From Candidatus Kuenenia stuttgartensis (GTDB taxonomy: Bacteria > Planctomycetota > Planctomycetia > Planctomycetales > Planctomycetaceae), in contig CAMAVB010000048.1 in NCBI GenBank assembly GCA_945861465.1, positions 1-37,369 of the forward strand: 37,369 nucleotides of DNA, read 5' to 3'. Below the pieces are notes generated by a model. The model was given only the letters and a program-made list of their open reading frames with translations, was not told where the DNA came from and did not search any database. Shown piece after piece: positions 3,071-32,030 of the stretch. A program made the translations under genes and the position numbers. Position 1 is the stretch's first letter; each line of letters begins with the position of its first letter.

Positions 3071-3170
3071 TAAATCAACAGACCGCTAGCCGCGGGTTGT
3101 GCATTCGGTCAGCACCGGCGGCTAGTGCCTTGCCGCTCACAAAACCTCAAATCTGACCGCACGGAGTATA

Positions 3171-3296
3171 AGCACCAGTGCAGAAGTGTTTTAGTTTAAC
3201 GGCGAGCCGTAGGCGTAGGCGGAAGCACGCTGGATTCGCCTACGCCTACGGCTCGCCGTTAAACGATTTGTGCCAACTTACTTATGCACCAGTGCT
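3171..3296. repeat. Family A miniature element, intact copy (A1)
   Basis: A 126-bp element bounded by TA dinucleotides (3169-3170 and 3297-3298). Terminal inverted repeats are AGCACCAGTGCA and TGCACCAGTGCT. An inner long hairpin has arms GTTTAACGGCGAGCCGTAGG (3195-3214) and the inverse ending at 3263. The copy at 12492-12720 is nearly identical but interrupted by element B1. The TA target duplication is inferred from the two copies. Confidence 0.85.
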
Positions 3297-3309: not shown

Positions 3310-5673
3310 TCAGGTCAACCGGGCGAAGCCGGTGTGGCGGACTGAACCGCCGATAGTCTGAAGTCGTGGCAGTACGTCGTCGAGGCGAATTGCTTCGGCC
3401 AATTCGACGAAGACCGGTTCGACGGCTGCGAGGTACTGCGTGATATGGTGTTCTTTGTGGGCGAAACTGGGGTAGAAGCCGCTGCCGGTCAGGTAGCCTC
3501 GGTCAAGCATCCGCGCGGTGAGTAGTGTTCCGAGTGCTGCGGCTTGTGCGTGATCGAAACTCAGATGAAGCAGGGCCGGGTGCCCCGTGACCTTGACAGG
3601 CACTCCAATTCGCCGGCCCAGAGTCTTCCAGCCATCGCGCATCAGGGTGCCGATGTGACTCGTGTGAGCGGCGATGTTGACGTCTCGAAGTTTCCGGATC
3701 GTCGCCAACGCGGCGGTTGGACCGACGCCTTCGGTCCAATAAGTGCTGGAAATGAATGACGTCTGCGCAGCGTCCATGATGCGGCGGCGGCCAATGATCG
3801 CGGCCATCGGGTGACCATTGCCGATTGCTTTGGCAAACACAGCAACGTCCGGCATCACGCCGTACTTCAAATGCGCACCGCCGAGATGCATCCGCCAACC
3901 GGAGGAAATCTCGTCGAAAACCAGTGCTGCACCGCAACGGTCACAAAGTTCGCGGACGCCTTCGAGAAAGCCCGGATCGGGATCGGTCGAGCGTGTTGGT
4001 TCCATCACAACCGCTGCGAGTTCACTGCCGTGAATGGCTACGATCTGCGCCAGTTCTTGTAATCTGTTATACGTGAAGGGCAGTGCGGTTCCCGCGAGTC
4101 CCCGCGGTACGCCTGCCGGTGCAAGGCCCGGCAGCAGGTGACCTTGCAGACTGTCGGCAGCACCCACCGGATTCACGTTCGCCGCCAGATACCAGTCGGA
4201 CCATCCGTGATAGCCACAGAACGCGATCTTATCGCGTCCGGAGGCAGCACGCACAAGGCGGACGGCGATGGCCATCGATTCACCGCCGGTACGTGCATAA
4301 CGAACCTGCTCGGCCCACGGATGCAGTTCGATCAGCAGCTCGGCTAACTCGACTTCCTCAGCGGCGTTCAGCGTCGACATCGAACCGAGCGCGATGCGGC
4401 GCTGGACCGCTGCCGTAACATCTGGATCGGCGTAACCCAGCAGGCACGAACCGATGCCGGATGTCGTCATGTCGATGAATCGGCGGCCATCAAGGTCCGT
4501 CACTTCACAGCCATGTGCTTCACGGGCGTAGGCTGGCCAGAGTCCGGGAGCGAACATCTCCGGACGCTTGCTGAGCAGTTGGGTTCCGCCAGGAATCAGT
4601 TGCTTTGCCCTGGCATACAACTTCTGTGTCTGCCCACCGTCAGGCGGAACTGCGTGGGAATCGTCTTCGCGGAACTGAACATGAAACGCGGAGACGGCGT
4701 TTTTCCAGAAAAGGTTCTGAATGTCGTCTGGAGACCATTGGGCAATTTCAGCCGCATGCTTCATGGACAGCAATTGTTCATAGATCGCCAGAATCGGTCG
4801 CCCGTCGCAATGCGGAAATTGCAGGTTCAAGCGGCCGGCGTCCACGTATTGCCAGGCGCGTCCCATCGCGGCGTACTGACCATGAAAGTACATCGCATCA
4901 ATGCCGTCTGATCCGTACAACATGCGCCGGCGATCCTCACGCGAGAACAGCGTGATCAGCGGTCGCACGTCAGTCACTGCCGACACGTCGTACCAGATAT
5001 TCGGCATGTCACGAAGTTGCTCGATCGCCTTACGAATCGGCCAGTAGGTAAAGCTGCGAGCACAATGGGCCAGAATCCATTTGATGTTCGGGTAGCGGCT
5101 TCCCGTGAATTCCTGCAGATCGCTCAGATTGAACTCGTCCGCGCAGCCATGGAAACGAGAAAGGTGCATCGTAATCCACAGTCCCATTTCATTCGCCAGC
5201 CCCAGTTGCTCGTGAGTCAGAAACTCGTGCATCCGACATTGCGCGATATCGCCGGTGGTCGAGAACAGACGGTAGGGTTTGAGTCCGATGAATCCTCGCT
5301 CGCGGACGTCGCGTTCGATGTCCTGCACGCGACACGCCGGCGTCACGAGTCGATTCATGCGAGACTGCGGATCCTGTCGAACCTGCTCGATGCACCAGTG
5401 GTTGTGAGCATCAACATCGATCCCGACTGCTGGCGTCCCAAGCACCAGAAAATGCGTCTCACGACCGGGGTACAATCTCGCTGCCCATTTTTGTAACGTC
5501 GAGAAATCTGCGAAACTCCACGGATTCGCGGTCGATGGCGAAGCTGCCCTCACATGCTCAGGATGGAACATGTGAATATGGGCGTCGAACACACGATCCG
5601 GGACGAAGTCGTGGAGTTCCTCGTCCCAGATCTGCTGATCGTGTGGTGAGAAGTCGCTCAGAGAAACCGGCAT
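3310..5673 (-). CDS. Amidohydrolase-class III aminotransferase fusion protein
   Basis: A 787-residue two-domain protein. Residues 1-330 are an amidohydrolase (TIM barrel) with D30-A-H32-I-H34, H170 (ITMH), H203 (LAHC) and D256 (YGSDG), which matches the metal-site pattern of the amidohydrolase-2 family. Residues 345-787 are a fold-type I, class III PLP aminotransferase resembling glutamate-1-semialdehyde aminomutase. It shows TGGESMAIAVRLVRA (462-476), D587 in VFDEI and the presumed PLP lysine K615 in FAKAIGNG. Both active sites look intact. The true start is ATG 5673 (MPVSLSD). A longer in-frame start at 5958 would translate a repeat element (D1) and part of the preceding gene, and I rejected it. 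It is the third gene of the 8481-to-3310 operon. The substrate is unknown; a modified amino sugar or a small-molecule metabolite is possible. Confidence 0.85.
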   Translation of the reverse strand: MPVSLSDFSPHDQQIWDEELHDFVPDRVFDAHIHMFHPEHVRAASPSTANPWSFADFSTLQKWAARLYPGRETHFLVLGTPAVGIDVDAHNHWCIEQVRQDPQSRMNRLVTPACRVQDIERDVRERGFIGLKPYRLFSTTGDIAQCRMHEFLTHEQLGLANEMGLWITMHLSRFHGCADEFNLSDLQEFTGSRYPNIKWILAHCARSFTYWPIRKAIEQLRDMPNIWYDVSAVTDVRPLITLFSREDRRRMLYGSDGIDAMYFHGQYAAMGRAWQYVDAGRLNLQFPHCDGRPILAIYEQLLSMKHAAEIAQWSPDDIQNLFWKNAVSAFHVQFREDDSHAVPPDGGQTQKLYARAKQLIPGGTQLLSKRPEMFAPGLWPAYAREAHGCEVTDLDGRRFIDMTTSGIGSCLLGYADPDVTAAVQRRIALGSMSTLNAAEEVELAELLIELHPWAEQVRYARTGGESMAIAVRLVRAASGRDKIAFCGYHGWSDWYLAANVNPVGAADSLQGHLLPGLAPAGVPRGLAGTALPFTYNRLQELAQIVAIHGSELAAVVMEPTRSTDPDPGFLEGVRELCDRCGAALVFDEISSGWRMHLGGAHLKYGVMPDVAVFAKAIGNGHPMAAIIGRRRIMDAAQTSFISSTYWTEGVGPTAALATIRKLRDVNIAAHTSHIGTLMRDGWKTLGRRIGVPVKVTGHPALLHLSFDHAQAAALGTLLTARMLDRGYLTGSGFYPSFAHKEHHITQYLAAVEPVFVELAEAIRLDDVLPRLQTIGGSVRHTGFARLT

Positions 5674-5782
5674 TTCGAGTTCCGAAAAAAGAAAGTAACT
5701 TCGTTGGACTGTCAGTGAGCGGCAAGGCGCTGGCCGCCGGTGCTGTAAACCAGATTCAGAATGAGAACCAGAGTTTTCGCAG

Positions 5783-5879
5783 GTAGGGTGGGACAAGCGG
5801 CTGACAAGCCGCGCCGGCCCACCGTTCTCAAGCACACATGGTGGGCCGGCGCTCCCGTTGCTCGCTGGTCCCACCCTAC
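5783..5879. repeat. GTAGGGTGGGAC palindromic element (family D, copy 1)
   Basis: An imperfect inverted repeat beginning GTAGGGTGGGACAAGCGG and ending CGCTGGTCCCACCCTAC, with inner arms GGTGGGCC/GGCCCACC. It lies between the oxidoreductase and fusion genes of the minus-strand operon. Copy 2 is at 8656-8732. If transcribed it would form a strong hairpin in the operon mRNA. Confidence 0.88.
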
Positions 5880-5893
5880 AAGAACTCCGCTTC

Positions 5894-6958
5894 TCATAGA
5901 GAGCCTGGTTTAGAACCTGGTCGATCGCCTGGATTCTCAATCGTTTGCCAGCACCCATGATCTACACTCGCCAGCGCAGCCAGATTGACGCGCAATGTCT
6001 GCAGGCCGTCATGCAGACTACAAAGCAGCGAAGTTTGACCTTCGACGGCATCTAGAAATCGATTGGCCTGCGTCACGAACATGGCGTCGCGGGGCTGCGG
6101 CTCGTGCGGTTCGTCGTGCCAGAGTTCGTCACGGCGCATCATCCATCGCCAGCGATGCGCGTGCGTTTCCCAACGGACAGTGCCATGTTCACAAATGACG
6201 GTGAGCGTGATTTCGTTTGGTGCCTGATGCTGATTCAGACTATAACTGCCGAGCACATCGCCGTGACGCGTCAGCACATGCACCGTGTCTTCCACAGTCA
6301 CGCCCTCAAGCACCAGGTGAGCGGCATCCGCGACGAGTCGTGCGATCGGGCCGACGATCCATTCCCCGGCGTTCAGAACATGCGTCAACGCATCCTGGAT
6401 TGCTCCACCTCCCGTGGCGCGGTCCACGTAATAGGTGTCGCGATACGCCGGGCGGTAAGTTGGAAAATGCTGGCCGCAGACGGCCACAATCTCGACGGGT
6501 TTTCCGAACCGACCACTCAATACGGCTGCGCGCATCGCCGCCAGTGCCGGATCACAACGCAGGACATAGGCCACACCCACCACAAGACAGCGCTGGCTGA
6601 CCAATTCTGTCAACAGGTCAACTCCGTCGGTGTTGGTGCTGAGCGGTTTTTCGATCAACAGATGGAGGCCGGCTTCAGCGAGTCGCGTGGCAATCTCCAG
6701 ATGGCGATCCGCAGGGGTTGCAATGACGGTCGCGGTGACCCGCCCGGGTGCTCGGTCAAGCGCATCGGCGTGACCCGCCATCGCCGTTTCAAGATCGGCG
6801 AAACCACGAACCTCGTAGCGTTCAGAGATCGTTTTTCGGAGTGCTTCATTGATCTCAACGAACGACACCTCGGCACGACCCGTTGCCTTGAAACAACGCA
6901 AATGTCGCTCGCCAATGGAGCCGACGCCAACAATCAGAACCCGGTGCAGATCACTCAT
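5894..6958 (-). CDS. Gfo/Idh/MocA-family NAD(P)-dependent oxidoreductase
   Basis: A 354-residue protein with an N-terminal Rossmann fold (VLIVGVGSIGERHLRCF, residues 7-23). The family signature EKP follows in LLIEKPLSTNTDG near residue 115. The C-terminal alpha/beta domain contains the TGGGAIQDALTHVLNAGEW segment where the catalytic residues normally lie. These enzymes oxidise or reduce cyclic sugar or inositol derivatives using bound NAD(P). The start ATG at 6958 overlaps the TAA stop of the upstream gene (TAATG), so translation is probably coupled. A longer in-frame start near 7114 would run back through the upstream coding region and is unlikely. Together with the downstream aminotransferase it suggests oxidation followed by transamination of a sugar-like substrate, which is inference. 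Confidence 0.9.
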   Translation of the reverse strand: MSDLHRVLIVGVGSIGERHLRCFKATGRAEVSFVEINEALRKTISERYEVRGFADLETAMAGHADALDRAPGRVTATVIATPADRHLEIATRLAEAGLHLLIEKPLSTNTDGVDLLTELVSQRCLVVGVAYVLRCDPALAAMRAAVLSGRFGKPVEIVAVCGQHFPTYRPAYRDTYYVDRATGGGAIQDALTHVLNAGEWIVGPIARLVADAAHLVLEGVTVEDTVHVLTRHGDVLGSYSLNQHQAPNEITLTVICEHGTVRWETHAHRWRWMMRRDELWHDEPHEPQPRDAMFVTQANRFLDAVEGQTSLLCSLHDGLQTLRVNLAALASVDHGCWQTIENPGDRPGSKPGSL

Positions 6959-10260: not shown

Positions 10261-10525
10261 TGCCCAACGAGCATATCGATGCTGTCAGGGAACACGTGAA
10301 TCGCTTTGTGTGGGGCATGATCCAGCTACAACTGACAACCGGAATGCGCCCTGGAGAAGAGCGGCTGATGCATCTGCGTGACATCGAGATGAGTGGCGAA
10401 GTCTGGGAGTACCGTCCACAGGAGCATAAGACAAAACACCACGGTCGCCAACGGTTGATCTTCATCGGACCGAAGGGGCAGTAGATTGTGAAGCAATTCC
10501 TGGTGGCAGATCGTGAAACGGCATC
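10260..10525 (+). pseudogene. Tyrosine recombinase (integrase) remnant
   Basis: The frame from 10260 encodes HIDAVREHVNRFVWGMIQLQ, then TGMRPGEERLMHLRDIEMSG and HKTKHHGRQRLIFIGPKGQ. This is the start of the catalytic domain of planctomycete-type phage integrases, including the first catalytic arginine (TGMRPGE). An in-frame TAG at 10482-10484 interrupts it. The same frame then continues IVKQFLVADRETAS, as expected of the family, until element C1 cuts in at about 10526. The N-terminal SAM-like domain and the C-terminal HxLR...Y part are absent. It is therefore a decayed fragment, useful as a marker of past insertion next to the repeat-rich block that follows. Confidence 0.8.
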
Positions 10526-10528
10526 TAA

Positions 10529-10627
10529 GGACCGGCGCAGAATTAACTGTCGTCTTTCGGGCGTGGAGCACGTTTTTAACGTGCTCGGCACGATGGAATC
10601 GTGCCCCACTTATTTCTGTCTCAGTCC
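10529..10627 (+). repeat. Family C miniature element (C1)
   Basis: A 99-bp element starting GGACCGGCGCAGAAATAA and ending TTATTTCTGTCTCAGTCC, flanked by TAA on both sides (10526-10528 and 10628-10630) as a 3-bp target duplication. The inner hairpin is GGAGCACG...CGTGC plus GGCACGATGGAATCGTGCC. On the minus strand one frame is stop-free (TEISGARFHRAEHV...). Copies C2 and C3 are at 16360-16458 and 20044-20142. Confidence 0.88.
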
Positions 10628-10654: not shown

Positions 10655-10867
10655 GCACTTGCCCAGGTGGAAGCGAATCTGGCTGCCGGGCACGTTGCTG
10701 ACCCAAACGAAGCTACCACCGAGGCAAGCTCGGTGGCGTGCAGCTAATTGGAATAGACGTCGCGATCTGGTGGCCAGACGGGGCTTCCATCCACGCAGGG
10801 TGGATGGCGTGCCGGGGAATACGGTATAGTCGTAATCGACGCTCGGCAACCATGAACAATAATGGCA
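10655..10867 (+). repeat. Family E dispersed repeat, copy 1
   Basis: About 210 bp that aligns by eye, in inverse orientation, with 18355-18563. Shared landmarks are GAATCTGGCTGCCGGGCACG, CTACCACCGAGGCAAGCTC, GACGTCGCGATCTGGTGGCC, ATCCACGCAGGGTGGATGGC and ACCATGAACAA. It contains internal short palindromes. The remainder of the gap (10868-11114) holds other fragments such as GTAGGGTGCGTGAAGCGGAG, but no gene. Confidence 0.82.
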
Positions 10868-11114
10868 CAATTCAAAAGTGAAGTGTACTCTCGTCAATAG
10901 CAAATCTTTGACAGCCCAGGCTAGCGGTCTGCGGCGGATCGTGATAAATCCTCTCAGAAAAACAAAACTCTCAACGTTTGCTGAGTAGGGTGCGTGAAGC
11001 GGAGCGTAACGCACCATTTGGGGAAAGCGTGAGAAACTGGCATGTTTCGCTGACGCTGCACACATCCGACTAACCCGAAGCGTCAGTGCGGGATTAAAAT
11101 AAGGGACAAGTTCA

Positions 11115-12485: not shown

Positions 12486-12491
12486 TTATTA

Positions 12492-12720
12492 AGCATTGGT
12501 GCAGAAGTTTTTTAGTTTAACGGCGAGCCGTAGGCGTAGGCGGAAGCACACTGGATTCGCCTACGCCTACGGCTCGCCGTTAAACGATTTGTGCCAACTT
12601 AGGACCGCTCGAGAAATAACTGTCTCTTTTATACCCCTCACCCTGCCCTCTCCCCTTCGCAGGGGAGAGGAGGATGCGGTCAATTATTTCTCGAACGGTC
12701 CTTACGGATGCACCAGTGCT
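12492..12720. repeat. Family A miniature element interrupted by B1 (A2)
   Basis: The same element as 3171-3296: ends AGCATTGGTGCA...TGCACCAGTGCT and the inner GTTTAACGGCGAGCCG hairpin. It is split at CCAACTTA by the B1 element. The right end lies on the stop codon of the SLOG-like gene. G1 abuts its left end with one base between. Confidence 0.87.
12602..12701 (+). repeat. Family B miniature element nested in A2 (B1)
   Basis: A 100-bp element from GGACCGCTCGAGAAATAA to TTATTTCTCGAACGGTCC, flanked by TTA on both sides. The terminal inverted repeats are about 21 bp with two mismatches. The inner part has CCTCTCCCCTTCGCAGGGGAGAGG, a 10-bp hairpin. Other copies are at 20146 (truncated), 29362-29460 (inverse) and 31931-32030. 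Confidence 0.9.
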
Positions 12721-15085: not shown

Positions 15086-18000
15086 TCATTGCCCTGCGGA
15101 AAACATGGGTTTCAGTTGGGCGTAGAGCTGTCGCATTTGGGCGTCCATCGGTCGGCCCTGGGTGGCGAACGAGTCCAGAACGGCAAAACAGGCCGCGAGA
15201 TTTCCCATAGCCTTTTGCTCATTGCCCCGGGCTCGGTGAAAGTGGAAGAGTTTGAAATGCGACACCGACACGTCGCGCGCGGCCTGCGCCGACACGGGGT
15301 TGGCGGCCAGCAAGCGTTCGCGGACCTCCAGACTGCGCGTGTAATGGGCCAGGGCCTGCTCCGCGTCCCGCGGCAAGCCCCGGCTGGCCAGAAAGTCGGC
15401 CAGCTTGTTCAAGCTCACCGACGCATCGCGCGCGGCCTGCGCCGACTCGGGGTTGGCGGCCAGCAAGCGTTCGCTGACCTCCAGACTGCGCGTGTAATGG
15501 GCCAAGGCCTGCTCCGCGTCCCCCGGCAAGCCCCGGCGGGCCAGAAAGTCGCCTAGTCGATCAAGGGTCACCGGCACGTCGCGCGCGGCCTGCGCCGACT
15601 CGGGGTTGGCGGCCAGCAAGCGTTCCAGTACTTCCTGACATCGCGTGTAATGGGCCAGGGCCTGCTCCGCGTCCCCCGGCAAGCCCCGGCTGGCCAGAAA
15701 GTCGGCCAGCTTATTCAAGCTCACCGACACGTCGCGCGCGGCCTGCGCCGACTCGGGGTTGGCGGCCAGCAAGCGTTCGCGGACCTCCAGACTGCGCGTG
15801 TAATGGGCCAGGGCCTGCTCCGCGTCCCCCGGCAAGCCCCGGCGGGCCAGAAAGTCGGCCAGCTTCTCAAGGGCGACCGAATAGAGCCGCGCCTTGTCTT
15901 CGTCGTCCGACTGCCGCTCATGCTGCTGCTTGAGCGTGTCGTGGAAACGGCGGAACAGAACCTCGGCACGGACGAGCTGGCCGGTGTGGAACTCGGCGGT
16001 CGCCGCCGCCCCTGCCGCCATCGCCAGTTCGCGGCTGCCAGGCTGCTCGCGCCACAACCGTTCCACCGTTTCCTCCAGCGGTCGCAACTGCCACAGCACG
16101 GACGAGTCGTGGTCGTAGATTTGTTCAAACTCTGCCGCAGCGGCAACAACCACGGTAATGAGCGCGCCGGCTGACTCCGCGCGAGATTCGACCGAAAGCG
16201 TGGCCAGCAGGTGCTCGCCCACCAGTCGATGCAGACGGGCCTGACGCGGCTGATTGCGCGCCGCAGGATCAAATTCGGTGACGACGAGCAGACGACGGCC
16301 CAGCAAGTCGTGCAGCAGCGTGAGCCACGGATCGGTGAGGCGTGTTGTTTCCGTCCCTGGTACCGGCGCAGAAATAACTGTCGTCTTTTGGACGTGGGGC
16401 ACGTTTGTAACGTGCCCGGCACGATGGAATCGTGCCCCACTTATTTCTGTCTCAGTCCCTGGCTGCAACTCCGAATACTGCATAGCTGCCGCTCGCCGAA
16501 GCCAGTCGATTACGATCATGTCGGATGGGAGCAGTGCGGCGAGTTCCAGCACATGCCGGGCAGCGGGGGAGAGTCCTTCGAGCGAATCATCGACGATGAC
16601 CGACACTTGCAGCGTGCGGCGTTTTTTACGCGATTCAGTTTCCGCTGCCGTTTCTTCGCCGTAGCGAACTCGGCGTGCGGTTGGCTCATCGGCCCCGTGG
16701 ACGTCGCTCCCGACCAGTCCTTTTTCCCTCAGCCACACGAGATATCTGGTGCAGGTTGCGCCGTCGCGGGCGTGGGCTTGTAGGTAGGCGGCGACAAGTT
16801 CGATGGCCAGCGTGAATCCGCCCAGCGCGCGGACGATTTCCCTGGCGGCCGTCTCTTCCTCTGGGGAGGCGAATTTCTGTCCCGGTTGGAAGTCACGGAT
16901 AAGCGCCAACGCATCCGATTCCGGCAGGTCATCCACAGGAATCGGCGTCAGGCTGGCGGAGTCTCCGCCGAATTCATGGGGGTCCAGCCGCGTGGTGACG
17001 ACGACCTGCAGCCAGTCCTCCTTCACCAGTCGAGCCAGTCCGCCAGCAGAAAGCAGATCTTTCTCCGAAACATTGTCCAGGATCAGCAGACAGTGCGGCT
17101 CGACCCGCGGGCGGTTGGCCACGTCCCGCGCGGTGTGCAGATCCGGCTGGCGGGAGAGCTGTTCCTCAATGCGAACCACGTTGCCGCGGGTCCACTGTTC
17201 CAGCGCAGAAAAGAGAGCTTTCAAAATGAACGCCCGCGCTTCCTCGGGTCGCAGCGTGGTCGGCGGTGGCGGAATGGTCAGCCCGATGAGCGAAGCGACG
17301 GACTCGAGCGCCTCAGCCATGTCGCGTTTGCCTTCACACGGCACAAACCACCGTCCGCCGGATGCATAGTGCTCAGCATAGGCGTACGCATACTGCATGG
17401 CCAGAGCCGTCTTTCCCTGCCCGCCCAGGCCGTGGAGCGCGCCCACGAGGCCGATCTTGTCCGCGATCAATCCGCCGTGCAGTTCGCGCAGCTCCCGATG
17501 ACGCCCGACGAAGTGAGAATACGAGGCGTCGAGATTGCCAGGTGCCAGCGCGGCAAGCGTTGACTTGTCGAGCCGCCTGGCAATGACGCGATCCATGGCG
17601 TCGATCCGCGCGGCGAGGTCGAGCAGCCTGTGCTTGTCGGTTTGCGGGTGAGCCCGAAGCTCCGCCAGCCGTTCGGCGACATCCAGTTCGCGGAGCAGGT
17701 CGGGGCCGGCAGTGAACCAGGGAATGAGTTCGAATGGTTCACCCCGATTCCGGCGCTGGATATCCTTAATCCATGCGGCGAGTTCCTGCTGGAGTCTGGC
17801 GTCCTCCGGTCCCGGGTTCTTCGATGGGACGATTTCGAAGTAGATCGGCAGGATGCCATCGTCTCCGCGCGCTAACGTGTGCTCCAGCCGCAGAAACTCT
17901 TCCCACTCGCGGCGACACCATTCGCTGCGCAGGTAGTTTGCTGAGAGAAACGCGATGAACAGCTCCGAATGCCGCAGCCCCTCAGAAATTCCGCGCTGCC

Positions 18001-18178
18001 AGTCCGTGCCGTGTTCGATCGACGCCTTGTCAAAAAAGACTTTCAGCGCGCGACCGGAGTAACGCTCGTGCTGAGCCAGCAGCCGATCATGAAACGCCGT
18101 GACCCAGCCATCACGACCTTTGTGTTCTGGGTCGTTGTCTTTGCGAGAGTAGGAAAGAAACAGGTGGTAATTGGGCAT
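15086..18178 (-). CDS. TIR/NB-ARC (STAND)/TPR protein with an in-frame repeat insertion
   Basis: A 1030-residue protein. The TIR domain occupies 1-150: HLFLSYSRKD (5-14), VFFDKASIEHGTDW (48-61), FLSANYLRSEWCRREW, with E91 the likely NADase glutamate. The NB-ARC/STAND NTPase spans about 220-660: P-loop GLGGQGKT (250-257), Walker B CLLILDNV (363-370), VVVTTRL (392-398), the GLPLA-like GGFTLA (453-458), and an MHD-like LHRLV (649-653). Residues about 574-607 are encoded by repeat element C2 and fall between winged-helix segments. The C-terminus carries four nearly identical 51-residue TPR-like repeats. TIR domains of this kind cleave NAD+ and make nucleotide signals; STAND modules oligomerise on trigger recognition. 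The first gene of a two-gene operon. ATG 18178 fits the TIR start. Confidence 0.88.
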   Translation of the reverse strand: MPNYHLFLSYSRKDNDPEHKGRDGWVTAFHDRLLAQHERYSGRALKVFFDKASIEHGTDWQRGISEGLRHSELFIAFLSANYLRSEWCRREWEEFLRLEHTLARGDDGILPIYFEIVPSKNPGPEDARLQQELAAWIKDIQRRNRGEPFELIPWFTAGPDLLRELDVAERLAELRAHPQTDKHRLLDLAARIDAMDRVIARRLDKSTLAALAPGNLDASYSHFVGRHRELRELHGGLIADKIGLVGALHGLGGQGKTALAMQYAYAYAEHYASGGRWFVPCEGKRDMAEALESVASLIGLTIPPPPTTLRPEEARAFILKALFSALEQWTRGNVVRIEEQLSRQPDLHTARDVANRPRVEPHCLLILDNVSEKDLLSAGGLARLVKEDWLQVVVTTRLDPHEFGGDSASLTPIPVDDLPESDALALIRDFQPGQKFASPEEETAAREIVRALGGFTLAIELVAAYLQAHARDGATCTRYLVWLREKGLVGSDVHGADEPTARRVRYGEETAAETESRKKRRTLQVSVIVDDSLEGLSPAARHVLELAALLPSDMIVIDWLRRAAAMQYSELQPGTETEISGARFHRAGHVTNVPHVQKTTVISAPVPGTETTRLTDPWLTLLHDLLGRRLLVVTEFDPAARNQPRQARLHRLVGEHLLATLSVESRAESAGALITVVVAAAAEFEQIYDHDSSVLWQLRPLEETVERLWREQPGSRELAMAAGAAATAEFHTGQLVRAEVLFRRFHDTLKQQHERQSDDEDKARLYSVALEKLADFLARRGLPGDAEQALAHYTRSLEVRERLLAANPESAQAARDVSVSLNKLADFLASRGLPGDAEQALAHYTRCQEVLERLLAANPESAQAARDVPVTLDRLGDFLARRGLPGDAEQALAHYTRSLEVSERLLAANPESAQAARDASVSLNKLADFLASRGLPRDAEQALAHYTRSLEVRERLLAANPVSAQAARDVSVSHFKLFHFHRARGNEQKAMGNLAACFAVLDSFATQGRPMDAQMRQLYAQLKPMFSAGQ
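15268..15877 (-). repeat. 153-bp tandem repeats in the TPR region
   Basis: Four copies with an exact 153-bp period (for example the AGAAAGTCG word near 15391, 15544, 15697 and 15850), each encoding LADFLARRGLPGDAEQALAH and a second helix pair. The nucleotide identity between copies is very high, which indicates recent duplication or gene conversion. A degenerate fifth end precedes 15268. Confidence 0.92.
16360..16458 (+). repeat. Family C miniature element inside the TIR/NB-ARC gene (C2)
   Basis: A 99-bp element from GTACCGGCGCAGAAATAA to TTATTTCTGTCTCAGTCC, flanked by CTG at 16357-16359 and 16459-16461. Element plus duplicated triplet equals 102 bp, so the host frame is kept and 34 codons are added. 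The insert-encoded peptide matches the stop-free minus frame of C1. Confidence 0.9.
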
Positions 18179-18328: not shown

Positions 18329-18354
18329 AAAACACTCCTGATCGTCCTTAAATA

Positions 18355-18563
18355 TGCCATTTTTGTTCATGGTTGCGAAGCGTCGAGTATGACTGTTCCG
18401 AATTCCCCGGCACGCCATCCACCTTGCGTGGATGGAAGCCCCGTCTGGCCACCAGATCGCGACGTCTCTACCACATTACTGCACGCCACTGAGCTTGCCT
18501 CGGTGGTAGCCTCGTTTTGTTCAGCAACGTGCTCGGCAGCCAGATTTGCTACCACCTGGGCAA
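18355..18563 (-). repeat. Family E dispersed repeat, copy 2 (inverse of copy 1)
   Basis: This copy aligns in inverse orientation with 10655-10867. The sequence after it (18564-18665) contains further related pieces: GGTGCCGCGATCTGGTTGCC and CTTCCACCTGGACGAGCCAG. The latter recurs in copy 3. Between 18666 and 18970 I see only short repeat scraps such as GACGCTAACGCGTTCCGGCT, also present near 2955-2975 in inverse form, and no gene. Confidence 0.82.
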
Positions 18564-18970
18564 GCCAGTGTGGAAAGCGGCGTGATGGGAATGGTGCCGC
18601 GATCTGGTTGCCAAATCTGGCTTCCACCTGGACGAGCCAGGGTGGAAAGCCGACAATACGCAAAACCCGATGCATGATAGAATCCCCGCCGACAACACGG
18701 GTCGTTCAAATCCTGCATCATGAAAACCTGCCAACAACCCCGGATTTTTAACAGCCCAGCGCTAGCCCACGGTTAGAACCGGACGCTAACGCGTTCCGGC
18801 TGATAACCTGAACCCGAAAATCAAATCGTGACAGAGCACTAGTGCCTCGTCGAGACTTTATCTTCGGCCTGCTCAGGATCAAGCATCGTAAGATTGGCGT
18901 TTTATGGTTATCGTGCCCATGCTTCTGTAATGGTCTCAGATTCTCATCCTTTGATCGCGAGGTATCCACA

Positions 18971-20043: not shown

Positions 20044-20142
20044 GGACTGGCGAAGACATAACTGCCGTCTTCCGGATGTGGAGCACGTTTTTAACGTGCT
20101 CGGCACGATGGAATCGTGCCCCACTTATTTCTGTCGCAGTCC
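20044..20142 (+). repeat. Family C miniature element (C3)
   Basis: A 99-bp element from GGACTGGCGAAGACATAACT to TTATTTCTGTCGCAGTCC. The left flank is TAG and the right flank TAA. It is directly followed by the truncated B copy, sharing the TAA. Confidence 0.88.
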
Positions 20143-29361: not shown

Positions 29362-29460
29362 GGACCGTTCGAGAAATAATTGACCGCATCCTCCTCTCCC
29401 CTGCGAAGGGGAGAGGGCGGGTGAGGGGTATGAAAGAGACAGTTATTTCTCGAGCGGTCC
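29362..29460 (-). repeat. Family B miniature element (B3, inverse)
   Basis: A 99-bp element, inverse to B1, flanked by TTA at 29359-29361 and 29461-29463. Its ends GGACCGTTCGAGAAATAA and TTATTTCTCGAGCGGTCC are intact. It lies between the CxxCH gene and the BON-like gene and may separate their transcription. Confidence 0.9.
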
Positions 29461-31930: not shown

Positions 31931-32030
31931 GGACCGCTCGAGAAATAACTGTCTCTTTTTACACCCCTCACCCTGCCCTCTCCCCTTCGAGGGGAGAGGA
32001 GGATGCGGTCAATTATTTCTCGAACAGTCC
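31931..32030 (+). repeat. Family B miniature element (B4)
   Basis: A 100-bp element flanked by TAA at 31928-31930 and 32031-32033. It is almost identical to B1. The sequence from 32034 to 32298 carries no gene; a 10-bp stem GGTCTGGCGG/CCGCCAGACC sits at 32239-32266, beyond the flotillin stop and without a T-run. Confidence 0.92.

Follow-up and report, generated by a model that had tools for sequence, protein, structure and literature searches.

A miniature transposon inserted in frame within a TIR/NB-ARC/TPR gene of Candidatus Kuenenia stuttgartensis

The window, meaning the whole 37,369-nucleotide stretch of DNA that was analysed (contig C48 of an 8.22-Mb assembly in 474 contigs), contains a long gene whose reading frame runs through a short repeat also present elsewhere in the window. 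The locus raises the question of what this repeat is, how it came to add whole codons to a protein and whether its length was shaped for insertion into proteins. Very probably, a non-autonomous DNA transposon (MITE) has recently inserted itself into the TIR/NB-ARC/TPR gene. The coordinates of the element, its carrier gene and its relatives in the window are collected in Table 1.

Table 1. Coordinates of the inserted element, its carrier gene and related elements in the window
Feature	Position	Strand	Basis or remark
Family C MITE, full length, 99 bp	16360..16458	+	Identical to C390 copy over all 99 bp
Target-site duplication CTG, left copy	16357..16359	.	
Target-site duplication CTG, right copy	16459..16461	.	
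Left terminal inverted repeat, consensus GGACCGGCGCAGAAATAA	16360..16377	+	
Right terminal inverted repeat, minus-strand reading GGACTGAGACAGAAATAA	16441..16458	-	
Internal hairpin 1	16397..16417	.	Single-strand DNA fold
Internal hairpin 2	16418..16436	.	Single-strand DNA fold
Carrier gene TIR/NB-ARC/TPR, 1030 aa, insert = residues 574-607	15086..18178	-	ORF, Pfam
Second family C copy, intergenic, flanked by a TAA duplication	10529..10627	+	
Third family C copy, intergenic	20044..20142	+	
Sister family D MITE, 100 bp, terminal repeats of the same type	12602..12701	+	
Sister family D MITE, 99 bp	29362..29460	-	
Sister family D MITE, 100 bp	31931..32030	+	

Ends, target duplication and fold of the element

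The segment was confirmed as a full-length MITE of a family here called C: it has terminal inverted repeats and a duplication of fixed length, measures 99 bp, lacks a transposase and occurs in 73 copies in the sampled sequence. The 18-bp terminal inverted repeats of the family are imperfect, with GGACYGNNNNAGAAATAA at both ends, and the window copy starts with GT where the family consensus starts with GG. When the element was folded as single-stranded DNA a z score of -6.0 was obtained, and none of 200 shuffles was equally stable. The first-pass annotation had placed the repeat at 16353-16462; the element is real, although its true ends are those of Table 1, and the wider span corresponds to the element together with an 8-bp direct repeat, GTCCCTGG, composed of the CTG duplication and look-alike flank. 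A target duplication encompassing all 8 bp was rejected because in the other copies the ends lie at GG...CC and 3 bp are duplicated. A 3-base match at a single site is weak evidence by itself, and CTG is exceptional as a target (1 of 49 in-register family C duplications). The copy on contig C390 equals the window copy throughout, GT start included, and is flanked by a TTA duplication of its own, indicating that an element starting with GT was able to move and that the window copy is a member of a young lineage of copies.

The claim that 99 bp plus 3 bp add 102 bp, and thereby 34 codons with no frameshift or stop, was borne out both in its arithmetic and in the open frame. The carrier gene enters a minus-strand frame that is stop-free through the element, and codons 574-607 encode the peptide GTETEISGARFHRAGHVTNVPHVQKTTVISAPVP. 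This peptide is indeed common to the stop-free minus frame of the copies reported at 10529 and 20044, both of which exist and lie between predicted genes. All three window copies were recovered unaided by a repeat search, in which the other two were 87% and 91% identical to the reference copy at 10525.

Copies of the family and their distribution relative to genes

At least 40 family C copies were found among the matches listed in the own genome. For counting, a sample of 120 stretches of 20 kb was drawn from contigs C1-C91 by contig number and position, blind to elements, with one stretch (on C32) placed to cover a paralogue of the carrier gene and containing no family C copy. Sample and window together amount to 2.437 Mb, or roughly 30% of the genome, and hold 73 full-length copies; addition of a similarity-picked set of 38 regions around the best family C matches raised the number to 108 distinct copies. 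By extrapolation, there would be approximately 250 full-length copies genome-wide. A search with the pair of terminal repeats (50-80 bases between), a pattern that also catches the sister family D, yielded 129 matches per strand in the own genome and none with a reversed control. The lengths of the 73 copies were 99 bp (63 copies), 100 bp (6), 98 bp (2), 97 bp (1) and 80 bp (1). In-register 3-bp duplications flanked 49 of them (TTA 24, TAA 22, TAT 1, CTG 1 and TTT 1), the usual target TTA/TAA accounting for 46, while the remaining 24 copies had no duplication or only an off-register match. Apparent CTA, AAG and TAG duplications were discarded as artefacts of copies set one base off register.

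Genes were called using a simple gene finder made for this analysis, with sites called after removal of the element (empty sites); the calls are sensitive to training, as one copy (L138) passed from in-frame to intergenic when the training set grew. According to these calls, 63 of the 73 copies are intergenic, eight are read through within predicted genes and two stop predicted genes. Further copies thus do sit in frame within genes rather than all being strictly intergenic, in keeping with the earlier proposal of an element that enters coding sequence. The corresponding counts are 94, 10 and 4 for the 108 distinct copies, 61, 7 and 2 without the window (n=70), and 65, 7 and 1 under stricter gene limits (n=73). 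Among the 108, the four stopped genes are doubtful ORFs of 48 and 96 codons, a 538-codon gene stopped 6 codons before its end and a gene stopped at codon 432 of 470; the two in the sample are the 96-codon ORF and the last. A copy near the start of, and in frame with, a Y1 (IS200-like) transposase ORF (L017, 1424-2200, minus strand) was counted as intergenic, though it may lie within the Y1 gene. Intergenic family C copies were found between convergent genes more often (17/63) than intergenic TTA/TAA sites (1045/6818).

The depletion, frame and length tests described here were run sequentially on the same data, and the p values are nominal. TTA/TAA sites in the sample (n=19,815) are 33.6% intergenic and 66.4% genic, compared to which the 10 genic copies among 73 (p ~2e-20; 9/70 without the window) represent a solid depletion of family C in genes. 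Insertion would be expected to leave the gene open at 50% of the genic sites, and in 38% of these open cases the minus frame would be the one read. Read-through was observed in 8/10 genic copies (p = 0.055; without the window 7/9, p = 0.09), and the minus frame was used in six of the eight read-through copies of the sample (p = 0.04; without the window 5/7, p = 0.08) or, with the similarity-picked set included, in 8/10 against the expected 38% (p = 0.009). The two read-through copies outside the minus frame lie near gene starts, at codons 31 and 9.

Family D shares its terminal repeats with family C and has a different core. Of its 24 full copies in the sample, 15 measure 100 bp and 22 are intergenic; the two in predicted genes are both 102 bp long, one being read through in a doubtful 56-codon ORF and the other stopping a gene at codon 555 of 593. 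The length of all 12 sampled intragenic copies of the two families is therefore divisible by three. With both families pooled, 12/67 copies of such length lie in genes versus 0/30 of other lengths (Fisher p = 0.008), a difference that persisted without the doubtful ORFs (p = 0.02), without the window (11/63 versus 0/28, p = 0.013) and without both the window and the two doubtful ORFs (p = 0.03). Comparison of the 99-bp C copies (10/63 in genes) with the frame-shifting D copies (0/20) gave p = 0.053. The support for the frame and length effects on genic copies is moderate.

The carrier protein, its insert and other carriers

The two best homologues of the carrier protein, a protein from genome G011 (35% identical) and the paralogue on C32 of the own genome (33%), align on both sides of residues 574-607 and lack the segment, so that its expected absence elsewhere was upheld in both homologues found. 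Matches above the Pfam cut-offs were obtained for TIR (residues 7-123), NB-ARC (340-467) and TPR_12. The first-pass annotation had put the insert between winged-helix segments, in a likely loop; the winged-helix-like region was assigned by position, with no Pfam match there. A structure model of residues 340-700 was calculated from an alignment of three sequences, including pieces of both homologues. In this model, fragment residues 236-275 have a pLDDT below 50 and lie between helices at 218-228 and 278-288, and 10-residue blocks with pLDDT 76-90 are found further out on both flanks of the insert; mean pLDDT is 58, and the low confidence at the insert is partly due to the alignment gap. The three-sequence model supports, without proving, the loop position, and the inserted stretch is probably a disordered loop that separates two helices C-terminal to NB-ARC, with a neutral or mildly tuning effect.

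Were the gene a decaying pseudogene, the insertion would be irrelevant to any working protein. Accessory immune-like genes are often lost, and a close orthologue was not found in 17 congeners, both of which count in favour of decay. However, the 1030 codons of 15086-18178 are open throughout, the three Pfam matches exceed their cut-offs and the alignment with homologues shows an intact P-loop, GLGGQGKT; we consider decay unlikely.

Three minor features of the carrier protein were also recorded. Its TPR part contains tandem 153-bp (51-codon) units at 15238-15996 (minus strand), 66-91% like the reference, which look like a recent repeat expansion. The protein weakly resembles a fusion of an FxsC-like TIR protein and an FxSxx-system TPR protein (NCBIfam, below cut-offs). 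PADLOC returned a single match, PDC-S66, to the TIR part.

Other genes carrying the element in the minus frame encode an Lhr-type helicase, a PD-(D/E)XK nuclease, an outer-membrane efflux protein, an AAA ATPase, a HAD hydrolase and a glycoamylase. Pfam scans covered nine other carriers and one borderline case; in each of the nine carriers the best Pfam-matched stretch does not include the insert. In the AAA ATPase (L015), matched parts of a single domain flank the insert on either side, and in the HAD hydrolase (L142) it probably sits within the domain, in the first half, which had no match. Three of the nine were compared with congeners, by coordinates only. In the efflux gene, residues 414 to 449 are unbroken in G017 (67% and 79%) and the 34 codons are absent, as they are in G004 (67% and 74%). 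In the nuclease gene, they are absent in G017 (92%) and G002 (90%), with wider gaps of 36 and 40 in the more distant G004 and G011. The helicase of G017 (90, 84 and 77% over three parts) has 25 codons versus 58 in the own gene. These orthologue gaps suggest an in-frame gain and are, from coordinates, the strongest evidence for it.

Origin of the insertion and comparison with known systems

The family C element was found in 0/17 congeners and 0/19 other genomes of the taxonomic family; of 22 genomes from the class, G051 alone gave a match, confined to the inner part of the element. The terminal-repeat-pair pattern had two matches in congener G017; of 170 genomes, the 168 besides G017 and the own genome had none. 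The G017 copies, together with one in G002, belong to family D. Searches of Rfam (221 bases), plasmids and viral contigs (one exact 23-base pattern) returned no match for the element.

A TNA-like target duplication of 3 bp is a trait of IS1031/IS5-type elements, and family C is like the MITEs of this type in its usually TWA duplication. No IS5-type transposase with matching ends was found in the genome. Twelve genomic places matched PF01609; an autonomous element's pair of repeats was seen at none of them, and one has a MITE nearby. PF13359 and PF13586 matched nowhere. An autonomous element with the same ends was not found in the 2.44-Mb sample, and the 474-contig assembly may miss multi-copy IS. 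Five long pairs of terminal repeats 400-3500 bp apart were present in the sample. The L091 pair, which has matching 3-bp flanks, encloses other ORFs, none transposase-like by eye. At L209 (629-2244), a family D-like left end lies ahead of a DDE_5/DDE_Tnp_1 transposase, with no right end seen, and no second full copy of the DDE_5 protein was found in the own genome.

In the history that we favour, a transposase acting in trans would have put the element into a short, usually TWA, target; most genic insertions would have been purged, or genes avoided, and the survivors would be frame-keeping insertions in a loop or between domains. A wider reading is that a burst of a codon-neutral transposon left its ~250 copies and, by extrapolation, some 25-30 proteins with a 34-residue insert, mostly in the minus frame as the peptide is soluble and harmless, with the 100-bp sister family barred from genes. 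This we entertain tentatively, doubting it rather more than we believe it, since dropping the window copy reduces the support for the frame preference to p = 0.08. If true, length modulo three would determine which transposons can find refuge in coding DNA.

Whether the length was shaped for proteins was assessed from differences to the consensus. Minus-frame carriers (n=8) have 8 synonymous and 35 non-synonymous differences, and intergenic copies (n=74) have 90 and 252, with no difference between the ratios seen (p = 0.35; the count leaves out 8 copies set one base off register). A selfish element that invades proteins, its codon-neutral length and open, soluble minus frame held under selection, would explain why one of three open frames is used in 8/10 read-through carriers and why it is this one, the minus peptide being hydrophilic and Cys-free while one plus frame is hydrophobic and the other has three Cys. 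However, these ratios argue against it, as do the 63 intergenic copies of 73 and the sister family with the same ends and a mostly 100-bp length (15/24); the minus frame is open in 73/74 intergenic copies, an openness that needs no selection in genes. Adaptation to proteins is accordingly judged improbable, slightly more so than decay of the gene, and the data fit tolerance, not use, of the peptide. The first-pass annotation had called 99 plus 3 a property that suits insertion into proteins, of which the arithmetic holds and the shaping for protein life is unsupported; as in-frame copies show no synonymous excess, the codon-neutral length seems to have arisen by accident in a founder and to have been filtered afterwards, as broken genes were selected against. 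That the segment is instead ancestral to the TIR/NB-ARC protein, the family having spread by copying out of the gene, is consistent with the intact frame and the stop-free segment but has a negligible chance of being right given its absence from two homologues, the same ends with separate duplications at dozens of unrelated sites and the identical copy with a TTA duplication.

From excerpts of the literature, in-frame MITE fusions are already known for the Rickettsia palindromic elements (RPE), ERIC/RU, Correia elements and the Coxiella QMITEs. The portions of PMC10969869 and PMC2229807 available describe RPE as palindromic elements of about 105-146 bp with a stop-free frame, gained in frame in conserved proteins; ORFs contain nearly half of the copies in R. 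conorii and 11/12 in other species (PMC10969869, excerpt). Family C likewise enters unrelated protein genes in frame (8/73 sampled plus 2 similarity-picked copies), so the earlier likening to RPE holds for the effect. It fails for family membership: only 10/73 copies are in predicted genes and 63 are intergenic, family C has a clear 3-bp duplication, and its host belongs to another phylum (the window encodes PSCyt1/PSCyt2/PSD1). The family C consensus peptide matched no NCBIfam model at E <= 1, RPE kinship being judged via these models.

The enterobacterial ERIC and RU-1, RU-2 and RU-3 are MITE-like and intergenic, and some of them form in-frame fusions that leave conserved domains untouched (PMC2759123, excerpt). 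Fusions of RU to superfamily proteins are reported there as C-terminal, whereas several family C inserts are internal. Correia/NEMIS elements of Neisseria fall into two size classes, one open-framed and often genic, the other almost only intergenic (PMC2229807, excerpt), a contrast that resembles and anticipates that between families C and D. The Neisseria contrast is tied, in that excerpt, to stop codons, whereas length modulo three separates the intragenic copies of C and D. Coxiella QMITE1 and QMITE2 are MITEs with occasional in-frame ORF insertions but, according to the portion of PMC5896051 available, differ from family C in their length (150-400 bp), duplications and copy number (about 50 each). 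A literature search on planctomycete MITEs or a multiple-of-three MITE length gave no title on such a case among the matches listed.

Two families that share their ends within a single genome provide a natural experiment on the gain of protein segments, in which family C adds 34 whole codons, family D mostly shifts the frame and congener orthologues represent the state before insertion. Conserved enzymes that read through a 34-residue insert make direct tests of function possible. For annotation, a peptide common to unrelated planctomycete proteins may be a transposon and not a domain.

Other features of the window were noted in passing. Two copies of a 112-bp repeat (3169-3280 and 12490-12601) are 96% alike and contain a perfect inverted repeat of 28 bp, and the copy at 12490-12601 adjoins a family D element. 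A 215-bp inverted repeat pair (10658-10872 and 18350-18564) is 89% complementary. The ORF at 3310-5958 (minus strand) is an apparent fusion, with matches to an amidohydrolase as well as to a class-III aminotransferase.
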